Shown one piece after another: positions 15,656-53,051 of a stretch of 64,000 nucleotides of DNA. The position numbers and the translations under genes are program-made. The stretch covers positions 311,501 through 375,500 of the forward strand of contig NZ_JAMCCO010000002.1 of NCBI RefSeq assembly GCF_023371205.1. Direction: 5' to 3'. The notes under the pieces were generated by a model, which ran no database searches, had not been told where the DNA came from, and saw only the letters and a list, made by a program, of their open reading frames with translations. Position 1 is the stretch's first letter. Each line of letters opens with the position of its first letter. This DNA is from Parvivirga hydrogeniphila (GTDB lineage: Bacteria; Actinomycetota; Coriobacteriia; Anaerosomatales; Anaerosomataceae).

Positions 15656-17167
15656 TCAGCAGCTCCCTTCCGGGGTCTTCGGCTCGTAGATGCAGTAGGG
15701 TTCGGCCTCCAGGTAGTCGCCGGTGATCTCGAGCGCACGGGCACGGCACCCGCCGCAGACCGCCTTGTACTCGCACCGGCCGCACTTGCCCTTGAGCTTG
15801 CTGTAGTCGCGCAGGTCGTTGAAGACCGGCGAGTTCGTCCAGATGTCGGAGAACCGCTGCTCTTTGACGTTGCCGAGCTGCATGTCGAAGTAGCCGCACG
15901 GCTGGATGTCGCCGGTGTGGCTGATGAAGCAGAAGGTGATGCCGCCCAGGCAGCCGCGCGTCATGGCGTCGAGGCCGTACTCCTCGCGCGTGACCTTGCG
16001 GCCCTCGGCCTTCGCCAGCTGCCGGATGATGCGGTAGTAGTGCGGCGAGTCCGTGGGCTTGAAGTGCAGCGGGCTCGTCTTCTGGCGGTGGTACGCCCAG
16101 GTGAGCACGCGCTCGTACTCCTCGGGCGGGAGCTCCTTGTCCAGAAGGTCGGCGCCGCGGCCGGTCGGCACGAGCATGAAGATGTGGAACGCGTCCACGC
16201 CGAGCGACTCCGCCAGGTCGTGCACCTCGGCGACCTTGGTGTGGTTGAGCGTCGTGACGGTCATGTTGATCTGCACGCCGATGCCGTGGCGTTTGGCGAT
16301 CTTGATGCCTTCGATGCTCGCATCGAAGCACCCCGGCTGGCCGCGGAACGCGTCGTGCTCCTCGGCGGTCGGAAAGTCGATCGAGACGCTGATGCGCGGG
16401 ATCCTGTGCTCCGCCATCTTGGCGGCGATCTCCTCGGTGATGAGCGTTGCGTTGGTGCCGATGACCGGCATGCAGCCCTTCTCGTGCGCGTAGTCGATGA
16501 TGTCCCAGATGTCCGGCCGCATCAGCGGCTCGCCGCCGGTGAGGATGATGATGGGATTGCTGATGGTGGCGATATCGTCGATGACGGCCTTGATCTCGTC
16601 GAGAGACAGCTCGCCCGGATAGTAGCCGAACTCAGCAGCCGCACGGCAGTGCGCGCAGCTCAAGTTGCACGAGCGCGTGATCTCCCACGCGATGATGCGT
16701 GGCGCCTTGATGCCCGTGCGCTCCTCGTATGCGAGGGCGGCAGGCCCGCCGCCGGGTCGGAAGCCCACCGAGCGCGCCCCGCCGTGACGCTGGCGCGGCA
16801 CGCCCGCAGGGTGACCACCGGGGCCGCCCGGCACGCCCGCCGGATGCCCGCCGGCGGCGGGCGCGTGCGGCGAGGGGGAGGCGCTCGACGAAGCCTCTGC
16901 AGCCGCCGGAGGCGGAGGGCCTGCGAGGGCATGCGCGTGCGGCGAGGGGGAGGCGCTCGACGAAGCCTCTGCAGCCGCCGGAGGCGGCGAAGCCAGCGAG
17001 GAGAGCGCCTCCCCCTCGCCGCTCCCCATCACGATCGCGACGCCGGTCCCACACCCGGCCTCGGCGGCCGCAAGCTCGCTCTCATCGAGCACGGGCCGGT
17101 CGTCGCCGAGGTCCTGCTCGAGATCAAGGTCGGGTCGCGCGTCTGCGTTTCCCACGTTCTCAGCCAT
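15656..17167 (-). CDS. ahbD: Radical SAM haem synthase-like protein (AhbD family) with long low-complexity N terminus
   Basis: 503 residues from the ATG at 17167 (GGAGAGG upstream); a GTG at 17191 that overlaps the hemB stop is an alternative. The conserved part begins near residue 155 with [21 protein letters not shown], the radical SAM CxxxCxxC typical of AhbD/NirJ, then [12 protein letters not shown]. It ends with a SPASM-type cysteine cluster ([35 protein letters not shown]). AhbD oxidatively decarboxylates two propionates of Fe-coproporphyrin III to give protohaem. The first 150 residues are Ala/Ser/Pro/Gly-rich and contain a duplicated block. NirJ is the alternative, but no nirS/nirE-type genes are nearby. 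Confidence 0.85.
16861..16915. repeat. 55-bp direct repeat, copy 1 (inside ahbD)
   Basis: An exact 55-bp copy of 16933-16987, 72 bp apart, in the part of ahbD encoding the low-complexity N terminus ([15 protein letters not shown] twice). The 72-bp period is a multiple of three, so the repeat keeps frame and duplicates 24 residues. A 16-bp inverted match of its GCGGCGAGGGGGAGGC block lies at 17007-17022, so the region could also form a hairpin. Confidence 0.9.
16933..16987. repeat. 55-bp direct repeat, copy 2 (inside ahbD)
   Basis: Second exact copy of the 55-bp unit at 16861. The pair suggests slippage or unequal recombination in a non-essential linker, and copy number may vary between strains. 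Confidence 0.9.
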
Positions 17168-17187
17168 CGAGTCCCTCTCCGTTCGCG

Positions 17188-18171
17188 TCACGCGTCGGCC
17201 AGCCAGCGCGCGACGTCTTTGGCGTGGTAGGTCAAGATGAGGTCGGCGCCTGCGCGCTTCATGCTCGTGAGCGTCTCGAGCACCACACGGCGCTCGTCGA
17301 TCCAGCCGCGGGCAGCAGCCGCCTTCACCATCGCGTACTCGCCGCTCACGTTGTAGGCGGCAGTGGGGTAACCGAACTCGTCTTTCACGCGGCGGACGAT
17401 GTCGAGGTACGCGAGCGCAGGCTTCACCATGACGATGTCCGCGCCCTCCTCGATGTCGAGCAGCACCTCGCGCAGCGCCTCCTCGCCGTTCGCCGGATCC
17501 ATCTGGTACGCCCGGCGGTCGCCGAACGCGGGAGCGCTGTCCGCAGCGTCACGGAATGGGCCGTAGTACGCGCTCGCGTACTTCGCCGAGTACGCCATGA
17601 TCGGGACATCGGTGAAGCCCTCGGCGTCCAGCGCGGACCGGATCGCGCCCACGCGCCCATCCATCATGTCGGACGGAGCGACCATGTCGGCCCCCGCCTC
17701 GGCGTGGCTCACGGCGGTCTGGGCGAGCATTTCGAGCGTGACGTCGTTCATCACACAGCCGCCCTCGTCGAGGATGCCGCAGTGGCCGTGCGAGGTGTAC
17801 TCGCACATGCATACGTCGGTGATGACGAAGAAGTCCGGGTCGTGCGCCTTGATGGTACGGATTGCCTGCTGCACGATCCCGTCTTCCGCGTACGCGCCGC
17901 TTCCGGCCTCGTCTTTCGAGGCAGGGATGCCGAACAGGATGACCGCGGGGATGCCGAGCGCTTTGAGCTCGTCGATCTCGGCAGGGAGCTGGTCGAGCGA
18001 CATGTTGTAGACGCCGGGCATGGACGGGACCTCGCGCTTCACGCCCTCGCCGAACTCGACGAACAGCGGGTAGATGAGGTCGCGCACGTCAAGCGACGTC
18101 TCTCGCACCATCGCACGCAGCGTCTCGCTCCGGCGCAAGCGCCGCGGACGGTACACCGGGAACTCAGGCAT
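17188..18171 (-). CDS. hemB: Porphobilinogen synthase (5-aminolevulinate dehydratase)
   Basis: 327 residues. Cys121, Cys123 and Cys131 in [14 protein letters not shown] form the catalytic zinc site. The two Schiff-base lysines lie in [18 protein letters not shown] and [14 protein letters not shown]. It condenses two 5-aminolevulinate molecules to porphobilinogen. It is the fifth protein gene of the haem operon, and its stop overlaps an alternative GTG start of ahbD. The zinc-type cysteines distinguish it from magnesium-dependent versions. Confidence 0.97.
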
Positions 18172-18207
18172 CGTGCCTCGCCTCGCTTTCGTTGCTCGGA
18201 CCGGACG

Positions 18208-18426
18208 TCACTCGACGAACGGCTCGATGTCGACTGTCGGCTCGTCTGCCTCGGCACCATCGCCAGAGGCGCTCGCATCGCGCGTCGCGTGGTCGACCCA
18301 GCGCTTGAGCAGCAGCACTGCCGAGACTGCAGCCACGGCCATGACGATCCAGTACAGCATCTGGATGATCGGCCCTGCGTAGTACACGAACTGCTCGAAC
18401 CCGTTCGCGGCACCACTCGTGACCAC
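18208..18426 (-). CDS. Small single-span membrane protein of unknown function
   Basis: 72 residues from a GTG at 18426 with GAGGAGG six bases upstream; an ATG at 18450 is possible but lacks such a site. One hydrophobic helix (IIQMLYWIVMAVAAVSAVLLL) is followed by a basic stop-transfer KRW and an acidic tail (AEADEPTVDIEPFVE). It sits between tRNA-Ala and hemB within the haem operon. It could be a small membrane partner of the pathway or of cytochrome assembly, but no family was recognised. Confidence 0.6.
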   Translation of the reverse strand: MVTSGAANGFEQFVYYAGPIIQMLYWIVMAVAAVSAVLLLKRWVDHATRDASASGDGAEADEPTVDIEPFVE

Positions 18427-18509
18427 GACGCACCTCCTCGCTTCTCGCACCTGTCACAGAAACAGTCGAGGCGCCCTGCGTTCACAGGCCGCCTCGACAT
18501 CGTATACGT

Positions 18510-18585
18510 TGGTGGAGATGAGCGGACTCGAACCGCCGGCCTCTACCGTGCGAAGGTAGCGCTCTCCCAGCTGAGCTACATCCCC
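18510..18585 (-). tRNA. tRNA-Ala (anticodon CGC)
   Basis: A 76-nt cloverleaf on the minus strand. The acceptor GGGGATG pairs with CATCTCC and includes the G3-U70 wobble that identifies alanine tRNAs. The D arm is GCTCAGCTGGGAGAGC, the anticodon arm CTACC-TTCGCAC-GGTAG reads CGC at positions 34-36, and the T arm contains GTTCGAGTC. The terminal CCA is encoded (18510-18512). It decodes GCG, a frequent codon in this GC-rich genome. It lies inside the haem operon, between hemD and the small membrane protein. Confidence 0.95.
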
Positions 18586-18617
18586 GTCGTCCGACCCGGC
18601 CCTGCCGGGGCAGATGT

Positions 18618-18648
18618 ATACAATGCCGACCTCGGCGCGCTTTGTCAA
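18618..18648 (-). promoter_or_regulatory. Probable promoter of tRNA-Ala
   Basis: A perfect TTGACA (-35) on the minus strand at 18643-18648 overlaps the stop codon of hemD. A T/A-rich TTGTATACA stretch about 19-22 bp downstream could supply the -10. The spacing is longer than ideal, so the exact -10 is uncertain. It would allow the tRNA to be transcribed independently of the haem operon. Confidence 0.45.
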
Positions 18649-19457
18649 TCCGTCCCGACCTCGAACGTGCGCCTCCGGGCGTGCCGCTCGATGGCTTCGA
18701 CCAACGCGGGTGCCGTGTACTCCACCGGCTCGATCACCGTCGCAAAACCCGCCTCCCTGGCGACCTTCGCGGTGATCGGCCCGATGCAGGCAGCGATGAG
18801 CCGCTCGCGATCCGCATCGGGAGCGAGCTCGACGAAGTTGCGCACCGTCGAACCCGAGGTGAAGGTCACGTAGTCAACCTCGCCCGCCTCGAGGGCCGCG
18901 AGCGTCGCCGGATCGCCAGGACCAAGAACCGTGCGGTACGCCACCACCACGTCTACCAGGGCTCCGGCCTGCCGGAGCGCGTCCGGCAGCACCTCGCGCG
19001 CCTCCTCGGCGCGCGGCAGGAGCACCCGCGATCCCTCGCGCACGCCGCGCGCGAGCAGCCCTTCAGCGAGCGCTTCACCGATGTGCTTCTCGGCCACGTA
19101 GTCCGCTCGGATGCCGTTGCGTTCGCACGCGGCGGCCGTCGCCGGCCCCACGCACGCGACGCGCAGCCCCGCGACGTGGCGCGCGTCCCGCCCGCTCGCG
19201 TACAGGCGCGCGAAGAACCGATCGACCGCGTTCGCCGAGGTGAACACCACCCACGAGTACACCCCCAGGTGGCGGATGGCCTCGTCGAGCGGACCGGCGT
19301 CTTCGGGATCCGCAATCTGAATCGTCGGGAACGGCAAGACCTCGGCGCCGCGCTCGAGAAGCATCGTCACGAGCTGCTCGGACTGCTCAGGAGCGCGCGT
19401 CACGGCGACGGTGACGCCTGTAAGCGGACCTTCGATGGTGCCGGGAAGCGCGCTCAT
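18645..19457 (-). CDS. hemD: Uroporphyrinogen-III synthase
   Basis: 270 residues with the weakly conserved HemD fold: VTVAVTRAPEQSEQLVTMLLERGAEVLPFPTIQIADP at the N terminus (in pieces), YSWVVFTSANAVDRFFARL, and VDYVTFTSGSTVRNF plus ACIGPITAKVAREAGF near the C terminus. It closes the linear hydroxymethylbilane made by HemC with inversion of ring D. Placed three bases after the hemC stop. The assignment rests on these motifs and on position; sequence identity in this family is generally low. Confidence 0.9.
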   Translation of the reverse strand: MSALPGTIEGPLTGVTVAVTRAPEQSEQLVTMLLERGAEVLPFPTIQIADPEDAGPLDEAIRHLGVYSWVVFTSANAVDRFFARLYASGRDARHVAGLRVACVGPATAAACERNGIRADYVAEKHIGEALAEGLLARGVREGSRVLLPRAEEAREVLPDALRQAGALVDVVVAYRTVLGPGDPATLAALEAGEVDYVTFTSGSTVRNFVELAPDADRERLIAACIGPITAKVAREAGFATVIEPVEYTAPALVEAIERHARRRTFEVGTD

Positions 19458-19460
19458 CGC

Positions 19461-20420
19461 TCAGGTCCCCAGGAGCTCGTCGGCGCTCTCTGCGCCGCGG
19501 ATGGCCTCGAGTATCGCGCCCGCGCCGCCCTCGAGGAGCTCGCGCACCATGCGCTCGCCCAGACCGATGGGGTCTTCGGCAGGGCCTTCGACGCGCCGAC
19601 GGACGATGGTCGAGCCATCGAGCGATCCGACCATGGCGTCCATGACTATCCTCGCGCCCTCGATGCGCGCGTATGCGCCGATGGGCACCTGGCATCCGCC
19701 CTCGAGGCGCCGCATCACGACCCGCTCGGCGGTGACGCACTCCATCGTCTCCGGATGGCCGATATGCTCCATCACGTGGCGCATCTTCTCGTCGTCTTCG
19801 CGGATCTCCACACCGATCGCGCCTTGGCCGACCGCGCTGATCATCTGGCCGGGCTCGATGTAGTGCGTGATGCGGTCCGCCCAGCCCATGCGCGTGATGC
19901 CGGCCGCCGCGAGGATGACAGCGTCGACTTGCCCTTCTTCCGCCTTGCGCATGCGCGTGTCGAGGTTGCCCCGGACGTCCACGATCTCCACGTCCGGCCG
20001 CAGGTGACGGACCTGGGCCACGCGGCGCAGACTCGACGTGCCGACGCGCCCGCCTTCAGGAAGCGAGTCGAGCGTGTAGCCCTTGCCGCTCACGATGACG
20101 TCGCGCGGATCCACCCGCTCGGGCATCGCAGCGATGTACAGCCCTTCGGGGAGCTCGGTCGGGACATCTTTCATCGAGTGGACGCACATGTCCACCTCGC
20201 CGGCCATAAGCGCAACCTCGAGCTCCTTGGTGAACAGCCCCTTGCCGCCCACCTTCGCGAGCGGGACGTCGAGGATCTTGTCGCCGGTGGTCTTGATGAC
20301 CTTCAGCCGCACCGGTAGCCCGGTGATCTCCTCCACCATGCCTTTGATGTGCTCGGCCTGCCAGAGGGCGAGCTTGCTGCCCCTCGTGCCGATCACGAGC
20401 TCCGTGCGCTCAGCAGCCAA
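19461..20420 (-). CDS. hemC: Hydroxymethylbilane synthase (porphobilinogen deaminase)
   Basis: 319 residues. Signature segments are VIGTRGSKLALWQAEHIK, KGLFTKELEVALMAGEVDMCVHSMKDVPTELPEG (in pieces) and GTSSLRRVAQV. Cys243 in EGGCQVPIGAYA attaches the dipyrromethane cofactor. It polymerises four porphobilinogens into hydroxymethylbilane. The start overlaps the hemA end by 11 bp, so translation is coupled. Confidence 0.97.
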   Translation of the reverse strand: MAAERTELVIGTRGSKLALWQAEHIKGMVEEITGLPVRLKVIKTTGDKILDVPLAKVGGKGLFTKELEVALMAGEVDMCVHSMKDVPTELPEGLYIAAMPERVDPRDVIVSGKGYTLDSLPEGGRVGTSSLRRVAQVRHLRPDVEIVDVRGNLDTRMRKAEEGQVDAVILAAAGITRMGWADRITHYIEPGQMISAVGQGAIGVEIREDDEKMRHVMEHIGHPETMECVTAERVVMRRLEGGCQVPIGAYARIEGARIVMDAMVGSLDGSTIVRRRVEGPAEDPIGLGERMVRELLEGGAGAILEAIRGAESADELLGT

Positions 20421-21783
20421 GTCCGTCTCCCGTTTCGTTCGCAGCGTGCGTGTCGTGCATCTCGCGGGCCTTCCGGTTCAGAAGCGTCCGCAGAAGCCCC
20501 GGGCCGCGGCCGCCTTCGGCCTCGTCCAGCCCGTAGAGCTCCCGCGCCGCCTCGACCACGAGGTAGCCGTCGGCCTCCTCGGCGGCGGCCTTCAGACGCG
20601 CCGTCGGGCCGTGCAGCATCTTGTTGACAATCGCGCAGGTGAGCGCGTCGATCGTGGCGAGCTCCTTCTCCGAGAGGCCGCCTAAGCGCTTGAGGGCGCG
20701 CTCGAGCTCCGCCTGACGTATCGCTTCGGCCTTCGCACGGATGGCAGCGACCGTCGGGACCACCTCGAGCGACTCCTGCCACCGCAGGAACTCCGAGATC
20801 TCCTCCTCGATGATCGCCTCGGCGCGCTCGGCCTCCCGCATCCGCTCTTCGAGGTTCGACTCGACGACGCCGTTCAGGTCGTCGATGTCGTAGACGTACA
20901 CGTCCGAGAGGTCGTTCACCGCCGGGTCGATGTCGCGAGGCACCGCGATGTCGATGAAGAACAGCGGCCTGCCGCGGCGCCCCTTCATGACCTCGGCGAC
21001 ATCGGGTTTCCTCACCACGAAGTCCTGCGCTGCCGTGGATGAGATCACGATGTCCGCGTCGTGCATCCGCTCGAAAAGCGAGCCGTACTCGATCGCGCGC
21101 CCGGAGAACCGTTCGGCAAGCTCGACCGCGCGCTCGTAGGTGCGGTTCGCGACGAGCACGTCCACCGCGCCGTTGCACACCAGGTGCTTGGCCGTGAGCT
21201 CGCTCATCTTGCCAGCGCCGATGATGAGCACCGTGCGGCCTTCAAGCGAGTCGAAGACCTTCTTGGCGAGCTCCACCGCGGCGTAGCTGATGGACACGGC
21301 GTTCTCGCCGATGGCCGTCTCGGTGCGTACACGCTTACCGACCTCGAACGACTGCCGGAACAAGCGGTTGAACGCGCGACCGGTCGCGCCGTTCTCGAAC
21401 GCGTGCTCGTACGCCTCTTTGACCTGCCCGAGGATCTGCGCCTCGCCGATGACCATCGAGTCGAGCGATGAGACGACTCGGAACAGGTGCCGCACGACCG
21501 CCTCGCCCTTGACGATGTAGAGGTAGCGGACAAGGTCGTGACGGTCGAGGTCGTGGTAGTCGGCAAGGAAGCCCAGGACGGCGTCCACGCCGCGGTCGAC
21601 GTCGGACGAAAGCGCGTAGACCTCCGTTCGATTGCACGTGGAGAGGATGACCGCCTCGGCGATGGCTGCATCGCCAGTGAGGAGGGAGAGGGCCTCCGCC
21701 TGCCGAGCAGCAGGGAAGGTCAGCTTCTCCCTCATCTCTATGGGCGCGGTCTTGTGGCTCAGACCGACGAGGACCAGGTGCAT
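20410..21783 (-). CDS. hemA: Glutamyl-tRNA reductase
   Basis: 457 residues with the full three-domain layout. The catalytic domain has the nucleophile Cys50 in LSTCNRTEVYA and GEAQILGQVKEAYE. The NADPH domain has TVLIIGAGKMSELTAKHL. A C-terminal dimerisation helix region follows (VPTVAAIRAKAEAIRQAELERAL in part). It makes glutamate 1-semialdehyde from Glu-tRNA and is the usual control point of haem synthesis. Here the start lies only 35 bases downstream of a strong hairpin plus T-run, so expression is probably controlled by attenuation in the leader. Confidence 0.96.
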   Translation of the reverse strand: MHLVLVGLSHKTAPIEMREKLTFPAARQAEALSLLTGDAAIAEAVILSTCNRTEVYALSSDVDRGVDAVLGFLADYHDLDRHDLVRYLYIVKGEAVVRHLFRVVSSLDSMVIGEAQILGQVKEAYEHAFENGATGRAFNRLFRQSFEVGKRVRTETAIGENAVSISYAAVELAKKVFDSLEGRTVLIIGAGKMSELTAKHLVCNGAVDVLVANRTYERAVELAERFSGRAIEYGSLFERMHDADIVISSTAAQDFVVRKPDVAEVMKGRRGRPLFFIDIAVPRDIDPAVNDLSDVYVYDIDDLNGVVESNLEERMREAERAEAIIEEEISEFLRWQESLEVVPTVAAIRAKAEAIRQAELERALKRLGGLSEKELATIDALTCAIVNKMLHGPTARLKAAAEEADGYLVVEAARELYGLDEAEGGRGPGLLRTLLNRKAREMHDTHAANETGDGLGC

Positions 21784-21817: not shown

Positions 21818-21880
21818 AAAAAGGGTCGCCCCCGCCGGTGCGGTGCGTTGTTGTTCAGGCAAGCAGGCCCGGCGGGGGCG
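21818..21880 (-). terminator. Intrinsic terminator in the hemA leader (attenuator)
   Basis: On the minus strand CGCCCCCGCCGG (21869-21880) pairs perfectly over 12 bp with CCGGCGGGGGCG (21827-21838). The 30-nt loop is followed after four bases by TTTTT (21818-21822). It ends 35 nt before the hemA start codon and downstream of the hemA promoter, so it would terminate hemA transcripts unless disrupted. The loop contains GCTTGCCTGAACA, exactly complementary to an upstream leader segment, which provides an alternative fold. Confidence 0.75.
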
Positions 21881-21923
21881 GTATACGCCTCGCATCTGCG
21901 CACACGCTACGCTTGCCTGAACA
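21852..21923 (-). promoter_or_regulatory. 13-bp inverted repeat in the hemA leader (possible antiterminator)
   Basis: On the minus strand TGTTCAGGCAAGC (21911-21923) is followed 46 bases later by its exact complement GCTTGCCTGAACA (21852-21864). The second copy lies in the loop of the terminator hairpin, and pairing of the two copies would enclose the terminator's 5' arm. The two folds are therefore mutually exclusive in a simple secondary structure. Alternatively the copies are protein-binding sites in opposite orientation. A third copy lies at 29002-29014 in the ccmE promoter region. Confidence 0.6.
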
Positions 21924-21973: not shown

Positions 21974-22062
21974 AGGCACCGGTCCGCTCGTCAGCTGAGC
22001 CACCGCTCGACCGGCTGGCGCAAGAAGTCGTCACGCGGTATCGGAGGAGTGTCGAATCGTAT

Positions 22063-22100
22063 GCTCAGCCCACTGAGTAATTTTGCTCAGCCCACTGAGT
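22063..22100. repeat. Tandem CTCAG-N4-CTGAG palindromes, 3' of the SDR gene
   Basis: Two exact copies of GCTCAGCCCACTGAGT (22063-22078 and 22085-22100), starts 22 bp apart, linked by AATTTT. Each contains the palindrome CTCAG-CCCA-CTGAG. The spacing is two helical turns, as for paired operators. The array begins 40 bp beyond the SDR stop, like the 14296-14333 array beyond hemL. Read on the plus strand each hairpin is followed by a short T-run, but no rightward gene ends here. Confidence 0.7.
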
Positions 22101-22139
22101 GGATCAACCGCACCGTTGCTGGCCTCGCCCTTTGCCGCC

Positions 22140-28238: not shown

Positions 28239-28910
28239 CTACTTCTCGTTCTCGTCGACCGCCACGTCGGTGGCCACGAACACGCCGTTCATGAGCTCGC
28301 CGGAGATGACCATCTTGGCGCCCGAGGTCGCGCCCTGGGGCATCGCACCAGCCCAGGAGACCTCGATCGTCTCGCCGCCCTTGGATGTCGTGCCGAGTGT
28401 GAACCGCGGCTCGGCGCCCGAGGGCTTGACGCTGCCCTCGACCACGTAGCCCGTGATCTTGACAGGCTTGCCTTCAAGTTCGCTGCTCAGCAGCTTGTCG
28501 ACGGTGAGCGCGTCTTTCGCCGACGCATACTTGCTGGGGCACTGTGTGATGAGCTGCTTGGCCTCGATGGTCGAATCCTCACCGACGATGCCAGTCACGA
28601 TCGCAACGGTGCCATCGCCGAAGGCGCTCGGGACGGGACCTCCCCACACGACCTTCAGGGTGGGACCGTTCGGATCGTCCATCTGGCGGATGGAGAAGGT
28701 GAGCGGCTTGGCGTTAGGGGTCCACGACCCGGCCACGACCGGCCCTTGCACCTGGACCTGCTTGCCGACGAGGGACGGATCCGACACGACGTCGGCCACG
28801 GATTTCTTGTACGCACCGCCCTGCGTCATGACGAGGAGCACGAGAGCTCCCACGACGATGAGGATGAGCACCGTCACGCCGACGAGGCGCTGCTTGGCTC
28901 GCTTGTTCAA
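28239..28910 (-). CDS. ccmE: CcmE-type haem chaperone, CxxxY type, with two OB-fold domains
   Basis: 223 residues. An N-terminal anchor helix (VGVTVLILIVVGALVLLVM) is followed by a CcmE OB-fold (VQVQGPVVAGSW, LKVVWGGPVPSAFGDG). The haem-binding position is Cys124 in QCPSKY with Tyr128, i.e. CxxxY in place of the usual HxxxY. This variant is known from some anaerobes and archaea. Residues 135-218 look like a second OB-fold (VKITGYVVEGSVKPSG, IEVSWAGAMPQGATSG, FVATDV) lacking the haem residue. Usual CcmE proteins have one domain of about 150 residues. It heads the maturation operon. Confidence 0.85.
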   Translation of the reverse strand: MNKRAKQRLVGVTVLILIVVGALVLLVMTQGGAYKKSVADVVSDPSLVGKQVQVQGPVVAGSWTPNAKPLTFSIRQMDDPNGPTLKVVWGGPVPSAFGDGTVAIVTGIVGEDSTIEAKQLITQCPSKYASAKDALTVDKLLSSELEGKPVKITGYVVEGSVKPSGAEPRFTLGTTSKGGETIEVSWAGAMPQGATSGAKMVISGELMNGVFVATDVAVDENEK

Positions 28911-29091
28911 CGGGCCTCACTCCATTCGTATGCCTGACACCGAACAGGGCGACGGAAGCTTCCGATGCGATCGCATCTGCACGAAGCACCGCTCGTCGCC
29001 TGCTTGCCTGAACACCCGGATACTACCACCTGACGCCGATTGCGCCAATGCAGGCGCCCAGCTCGCCATCTGAAGCAAGCAAGCGCCGTGC
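28911..29091 (-). promoter_or_regulatory. ccmE promoter and leader, sharing blocks with the hemA promoter
   Basis: On the minus strand TTGGCG (29043-29048), a 17-bp spacer and TAGTAT (29020-29025) are followed by GTGTTCAGGCAAGC (29002-29015). Upstream is GGCACGGCGCTTGC (29079-29092), which begins at the coaX stop. All these blocks recur in the same order before hemA. The leader then has two adjacent perfect palindromes, GATGCGATCGCATC (28966-28979) and CGGAAGCTTCCG (28955-28966). No T-run follows, so attenuation is not evident here. Confidence 0.55.
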
Positions 29092-52663: not shown

Positions 52664-53051
52664 ACCCTTACCTCTCCGTTCAGTCGGTACTCCTGCGGGT
52701 CTTCCGCACCGAGTCCTTCGGTCCACACTCGACTACCTCGCCAGCGCCACCTCCTTCCTTCGGCCGTCATCGGGGGGAAACAAAGACCGGCCAGCACGCT
52801 CGCATCGGCGTCTGACCGGTCCTGTCGTCCGTATACGGCCTCCCTTACCCACATCGCGCACACATCGGCCCTCGTGAGGGCCTCCGGCTGCGCTCGTCCC
52901 CTTTCCGATGCGGGAGGCGCCGCGGTTTCCCACGACACCCTGTCGGCCCGAAGTCCGTGGCTTTCGCTGTAGGCGCTTGGGGCTCGGAGACGTCAACGGC
53001 CTTCTTCTGTTGCGTTCGACAGCGCCTGCCGGGGCCCCTGTCGAACGAGAG
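52664..53051 (-). promoter_or_regulatory. Long 5' leader of the formate dehydrogenase operon
   Basis: About 390 nt lie between the operator and the start codon with no convincing gene. It contains a 10-bp perfect hairpin, CGTTCGACAG...CTGTCGAACG (53013-53047), directly after the operator, and a GGCCCTC/GAGGGCC hairpin at 52871-52886. Between them is a GC-rich stretch with GCGAAAGCC and GGGAAACC segments that could be structured RNA. No T-run terminator is seen. Confidence 0.5.

Follow-up and report, generated by a model that had tools for sequence, protein, structure and literature searches.

The window analyzed here, a 64,000-nt stretch of Parvivirga hydrogeniphila DNA, carries two heme-related operons on its minus strand. 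The first begins with hemA, which encodes glutamyl-tRNA reductase (20410-21783; TIGR01035, E=1.7e-151) and is the first gene behind a hairpin. It is followed (15656-20420, minus strand) by hemC, hemD, hemB, and a gene whose radical SAM product falls just under the AhbD heme b synthase cutoff; since these genes follow hemA, heme synthesis through siroheme is suggested. A tRNA-Ala(CGC) gene lies inside the hem cluster (18510-18585). Between an SDR gene and the hemA leader, positions 22060-22101 contain two tandem copies of CTCAGTGGGCTGAG (minus strand) with a TTTT-like spacer. They form an imperfect palindrome, a possible terminator or operator. The second is the ccm operon (ccmE-F-A-B-C), whose first gene, ccmE (28239-28910; PF03100, E=3.2e-25), is followed by genes for CcmF, an ABC ATPase, CcmB, and CcmC.

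The hemA leader and its hairpin

Upstream of hemA, on the minus strand, a perfect 12-bp G+C stem is formed by a 5' arm, CGCCCCCGCCGG (T1, 21880-21869), and a 3' arm, CCGGCGGGGGCG (T2, 21838-21827), which enclose a 30-nt loop, GCCUGCUUGCCUGAACAACAACGCACCGCA. A 13-nt segment of the loop, GCTTGCCTGAACA (21864-21852), is the exact reverse complement of TGTTCAGGCAAGC (21923-21911), and a T5 tract, TTTTT (21822-21818, minus strand), starts 4 nt past the stem (stem-ACCC-TTTTT) and lies 34 nt before the hemA ATG. These elements, including the position of the complement near a predicted transcript start, had been described in the initial annotation, and all are confirmed. A promoter-like sequence recognized by eye, TTGTGC-N18-TAGCAT (21958-21929, minus strand), predicts a hemA +1 at ~21922, which falls inside the segment complementary to the loop. 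A strict-consensus scan of the hemA leader gave no promoter, after which promoters were judged from conserved spacing in relatives. The predicted 5' end of the hemA mRNA thus defined carries (T)GTTCAGGCAAGC (21911-21923, minus strand); GUUCAGGCAAGC at 21922-21911 is here named G1, and the order of segments in the leader is G1 - T1 - loop complement - T2. A perfect inverted repeat of at least 12 arose in 1 of 3000 shuffles of the leader, and two independent ones of at least 12 are present in 1 of the 1278 tiles of the window. Single-sequence folding of the leader gave a z of only -1.58, which probably results from competition among nested folds.

The initial annotation interpreted the leader as an attenuator or riboswitch in which the two pairings are mutually exclusive. 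The helices share no bases, and a mutually exclusive terminator/antiterminator pair is therefore rejected; they do cross, as in a pseudoknot, so that any mutual exclusion would be merely steric or kinetic. An attenuator or riboswitch that controls hemA in cis could still be envisaged, in which the hairpin terminates transcription, pairing of the loop with the 5' end (under the control of a metabolite, protein, or tRNA) affects either termination or translation, for hemA alone, and the similarity at ccmE is incidental or a separate promoter-region copy. Such a device would fit the T tracts that follow the stem in G000, G001, and a small number of other genomes (labels such as G000 for genomes and f17, f20, or f21 for families are internal to the analysis), the U7 directly after the stem in G609, and the cis target that accompanies the hairpin in almost every hemA leader of the order and in the ccm leaders of f46. 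However, most relatives lack a T tract, which occurs in ~6 of the 65 leaders of the order, 3-4 nt past the stem; the T5 tract is thus lineage-specific and a weak terminator at most. A U tract directly after the stem, the mark of an intrinsic terminator, is not conserved and appears only in scattered genomes, G609 being an example. The lack of common bases between the helices also speaks against a cis attenuator, as does the evidence from other loci considered below.

The part of the initial interpretation that stands is the existence of a conserved RNA element. BLAST searches with the leader identified a 60-nt core (21882-21823) that is mostly 93-100% identical within the family and mostly 82-95% identical within the order, while the HemA protein is ~66-80% identical outside the genus. 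The loop hardly changes among the 65 leaders of the order, and the differences in the stem are compensated. The initial annotation had named covariation as a check, and it supports the stem as well as the second pairing: in a covariance-model alignment, double changes are found at 10 of the 12 base pairs of the stem, pairing is kept in 99.7% of cells, and 0 of 500 shuffles were as good. In G077, a wholly different stem sequence, GUCUGUGCUGG, encloses the same loop core. A covariance-model search detected one copy of the hairpin per genome in 74 genomes of the Coriobacteriia (65 of the order and 9 others of the class) and also in 15 genomes from other classes of the phylum; those relatives that have a record title are mostly metagenome assemblies. 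Matches in G283 (29 bits) and in G090 were judged to be chance.

The view that this is not a described RNA class agrees with Rfam 15, in which no covariance model matched the element at its gathering score and matches at E up to 10 were at chance level. Nor was the element described in the open-access literature on hemA riboswitches and leader RNAs, ccm small RNAs, or Coriobacteriia small RNAs, where no regulatory RNA of this kind was found for this part of Actinomycetota. The hairpin is apparently the conserved core of an undescribed bacterial regulatory RNA. Elsewhere in the window, a Moco (molybdenum/tungsten) riboswitch aptamer is present at 52882-53001 on the minus strand (RF01055, 63.2 bits).

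Sites complementary to the loop

The loop contains two recognition blocks. Block 1, GCCTGCTTGCCTGAAC (21853-21868, minus strand), is near-invariant and shows double substitutions together with its targets; block 2, CGCACCGC (21840-21847, minus strand), covaries with the hemA and ccmE leaders. The cis target of block 1 is the exact loop complement at the predicted hemA mRNA 5' end, and across the phylum its core, GUUCAGGC, is conserved and covaries with the loop. The window contains G1 once more, as GTTCAGGCAAGCAGGC (29013-28998, minus strand), where the ccm mRNA is predicted to start, and here the complementarity to the loop extends over 16 nt. Over the whole window and both strands, this site (-38.8 kcal/mol) is the best duplex partner of the loop besides the loop's own antisense. 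Across lineages, the loop complement GUUCAGGC(AAGC) is found at the predicted ccm +1, at the hemA +1 in most lineages, and just 5' of the Shine-Dalgarno sequence of a third gene.

This third predicted target encodes a 178-aa protein (L179 1734-2270, corresponding to G000 C1:169236-169769; minus strand) with an N-terminal membrane helix and no Pfam match. The gene is divergent from a serine dehydratase-like gene and is present in 59 of 71 relatives. Its 12-nt site, GUUCAGGCAAGC, lies beside the Shine-Dalgarno sequence in 24 of 30 genomes, 21 of which have the exact 12-mer, mostly 22-32 nt before the start codon.

The positions of the hemA and ccm sites relative to the promoters are regular. In relatives, a TANNNT box is present 6-8 nt before GTTCAGG in 59 of 63 hemA leaders and in all 67 ccmE leaders; in the window, the ccm box is the -10-like TAGTAT at 29020-29025 (minus strand, by eye). 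Because this distance is a constant 6-8 nt, the GTTCAGG site should correspond to the 5' end of the RNA. The same regularity would also be expected if GTTCAGGCAAGC at the hemA and ccm +1 were the site of a transcription factor, with the hairpin copy serving as a second operator or an RNA decoy and the concerted changes following the specificity of the factor, and the sharing of one site by two heme-related operons is in keeping with such a DNA operator. However, the hairpin copy is displayed in the loop of an RNA whose stem covaries, in some lineages far from promoters (as in the ccm 3'UTR), and the site of the third gene is fixed relative to the Shine-Dalgarno sequence, ~19 nt after the -10 box. 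In addition, nearly every single change in the 8-nt core preserves pairing through a wobble, and complementarity to block 2 would not be expected of an operator. Although the sites are close to promoters, we consider a DNA operator highly improbable.

Pairing between RNAs is instead indicated by compensatory changes. In most genomes the target GUUCAGGC occurs with the loop GCCUGAAC. In f46 and f98, a double substitution in cis pairs GUUUAGGC with GCCUAAAC, and in one genus of f46 another pairs GUUUAGAC with GUCUAAAC, also in cis. In G675, where the target has the form GUCCAGG[C/U], the loop GCCUGGAC is accompanied by GUCCAGGC at hemA (cis) and GUCCAGGU at ccmE (trans). In G072 and G091, the loop ACCUGAAC occurs with GUUCAGGU at ccmE (trans), and related genomes show the G.U intermediate. 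The two signs of trans base pairing, conserved complementarity to mRNAs encoded elsewhere and compensatory changes, are found at the ccmE sites of 64 of 64 genomes with the hairpin and in G675 and G072/G091, respectively.

The second block provides a separate line of evidence. The loop sequence ACGCACCGC faces GGUGCGU in hemA leaders and AGCGGUGCGU in ccmE leaders. In the window, the cis site of block 2 is GTGCG (21899-21903, minus strand), complementary to the 3' half of the loop and short relative to the GGTGCGT of most relatives; the trans site is GCGGTGC in the ccm leader (28986-28992, minus strand), complementary to the loop segment GCACCGC. The fit of block 2 is better within a genome than between swapped genomes (p=0.0002 in hemA leaders and again in ccmE leaders, in a test inflated by relatedness). 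With altered-sequence controls, 5 of 6 were not significant, and the reverse-complement control for ccmE gave p=0.01. Examples of changed pairs are ACGCACCAAUC/GAUUGGUGCGU in G045 and ACGCACUGC/GCAGUGCGU in G029. By sequence, block 2 covaries independently of block 1. Block 2 is missing in f17, f20, and f21, and for this reason block 1 is probably the ancestral core.

The hairpin and the ccmE site also occur together. Among genomes of the class, GUUCAGG[C/U] is present in the ccmE leader of 64 of 64 that have the hairpin and of 3 of 12 that do not (Fisher p=1.5e-9, a value inflated by relatedness). The three exceptions come from incomplete assemblies or from ones in which a contig ends at hemA, and the complete hairpin-negative genomes have no ccmE site. 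G040, a genome of the same order that is 99% complete, has hemA and ccmE and has lost the hairpin and both G1 sites. The independent double substitutions, together with the relocated copies of the hairpin, are stronger evidence than the swap and co-occurrence tests.

Position of the hairpin in other lineages

Depending on the lineage, the hairpin is located in the 5'UTR of hemA, in the 3'UTR or 5'UTR of ccm, or in a stand-alone gene that has promoter-like and terminator sequences of its own (gene names at the loci of f21, f46, f98, f74, f93, f20, f87, and f96 were read from translations without a family search). In f20, f87, and f96, it precedes hemA, and the f20 hemA leaders contain no cis target. 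Promoter-like and terminator sequences around the hairpin are not apparent in most hemA leaders. In f46 and f98, the hairpin is part of a ccm operon leader, and the operon opens with a ccmC-type gene, ccmE, and a ccmF-type gene. The neighbors of the hairpin in f74 and f93 are moaC and mogA genes. All four genomes of these families (G542, G657, G730, and G648) have a promoter-like TTGATY-N17-TANNNT with a predicted start 12-39 nt before the hairpin, and a U-run directly after the hairpin stem. This order of promoter, hairpin, and U-run is, at the sequence level, the layout of a small RNA gene, and G1 is present in trans, in the hemA leader.

In the three genomes of f21 (G085, G089, and G077), the hairpin comes after the last genes of the ccm operon (ccmC and a ccmD-like gene), and no hemA was found at the threshold used. 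A separate strong terminator is present behind the hairpin in G085 and G089. The ccm 3'UTR hairpin and the complementary ccm 5' region are on one contig in G085, and gene content places them likewise in G077 and G089; the ccmE site of this family is at most 37 nt from the start codon. Thus, in f21 only, a 3'UTR element is complementary to the 5' region of its own operon, the arrangement of 3'UTR-derived autoregulatory small RNAs.

These locations bear directly on the cis attenuator. A hairpin situated in the ccm 3'UTR where hemA was not found, hemA leaders of f20 that lack the cis target, and trans sites that covary with the loop do not fit a device that modulates hemA only, and the initial suggestion of a hemA-specific attenuator or riboswitch is not supported, given that most relatives lack the T tract, that the hairpin is also present away from hemA, and that the loop matches mRNAs in trans. 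Occurrence in the ccm 3'UTR and in stand-alone units argues against a riboswitch as the general function. As an account of the element, a cis attenuator is very unlikely.

Proposed function and related RNAs

The covarying stem, the pairings of both blocks, the position of the targets, co-occurrence, and relocation of the hairpin are documented by the sequence comparisons. From these we propose, with a probability of roughly three in four, a new family of antisense RNAs in which the hairpin loop pairs with the 5' ends of the hemA and ccm mRNAs. Block 1 (CCUGCUUGCCUGAAC) would pair with the first 8-16 nt of these mRNAs and with the 12-nt site of the third gene, and block 2 (ACGCACCGC) would pair with a stretch of the hemA and ccm leaders located ~5-15 nt farther downstream. 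In the present genome the hairpin would be made within the hemA 5'UTR and would have the hemA 5' end as its cis partner and the ccm mRNA as its trans partner; in other lineages, the 3'UTR or 5'UTR of ccm or a separate gene would supply the hairpin, which would pair with whichever hemA or ccm leader has a site. In hemA leaders G1 in cis would compete with the trans targets, so the hemA message may be both source and target. A free small RNA is presumably released in the lineages with the hairpin in the hemA leader. In a few lineages (G000/G001 with T5 and G609 with T7), premature termination at the hairpin is possible and could release it.

Pairing would probably lower expression of the targets, through blocked ribosome access or nuclease cleavage. 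Pairing beside the Shine-Dalgarno sequence of the third gene, or close to the ccmE start codon in f21, should hinder ribosome binding. At the far 5' ends of mRNAs, a duplex could be either a nuclease substrate or an end protection, and the sign of the effect is uncertain there. The same pairing might accordingly activate, with the duplex shielding the ccm and hemA mRNAs from 5'-end-dependent decay, as the location of the site at the predicted extreme 5' end of both mRNAs would allow. However, the sites of the third gene and of f21 ccmE have the usual geometry of translational repression, and a protecting RNA is rather unlikely. The antisense RNA may serve to keep the synthesis of tetrapyrroles in step with cytochrome c assembly. 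A single loop that is shared by several classes fits the gene for the first step of this synthesis as well as the operon for heme-using cytochrome c assembly, and the hairpin probably ties heme supply to heme use.

Blocks 1 and 2 occur in the same 5'-3' order in the loop and in the target. This order would be possible if the two helices lay side by side under the stem, an ABCABC arrangement whose geometry we infer. A fuller version of the proposal, to which we give somewhat less than an even chance, is an antisense family that spans several classes, has been relocated among the hemA 5'UTR, ccm 5'UTR, ccm 3'UTR, and its own gene while its targets were kept, and forms two same-order helices under one stem (ABCABC in cis and the two-molecule equivalent in trans). 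To our knowledge, no bacterial small RNA recognizes an mRNA 5' end by such a two-helix, same-order geometry. Recognition by hairpin loops with more than one contact block occurs in antisense RNAs of the OxyS-fhlA type. Unlike these, the present element has both blocks in one 30-nt loop, arranged in the 5'-3' order of their target sites, and it is directed at an mRNA 5' end.

For heme synthesis, most known cases of control by RNA involve iron-sparing small RNAs. IsrR of Staphylococcus aureus, an iron-regulated, iron-sparing small RNA with many targets, acts on heme synthesis; its likeness to the present element extends to this pathway only, no relation in sequence was apparent, and iron control is not indicated here (PMC12607789). 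OppZ and CarZ of Vibrio cholerae are autoregulatory small RNAs derived from 3'UTRs, and the f21 element, a hairpin of the ccm 3'UTR whose complement lies in the 5' region of that operon, resembles them in arrangement only (PMC7398697). The sequences and phyla are unrelated, and the present element, unlike OppZ and CarZ, is also found in 5'UTRs and as a stand-alone unit in other lineages. Vsr217, a small RNA found only in Vibrio, derives from the malK 5'UTR and has roles in cis and in trans; the hemA leaders, as RNAs in the 5'UTR of a metabolic operon with likely roles of both kinds, again resemble it in arrangement only (PMC8265627). The targets differ, and release of a free RNA from the hemA leader is presumed. 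We know of no relocation of Vsr217. A hairpin that changes location while its targets are kept and covary with it is an unusually clean evolutionary record of trans-acting RNA regulation.

Many other matches to GTTCAGGCAA in relatives fall within coding sequence and were dismissed as chance. Two sites outside this group are possible further targets. In G093 (f20), GTTCAGGCAAGC is present shortly before the Shine-Dalgarno sequence of a gene for a 489-aa proline/threonine-rich protein (L241 1495-1540, C138), a possible lineage-specific target. In G010, GTTCAGGCAAGC lies 6 nt after a TACGCT box, ahead of a short reading frame (L186 ~2033, minus strand, C1).
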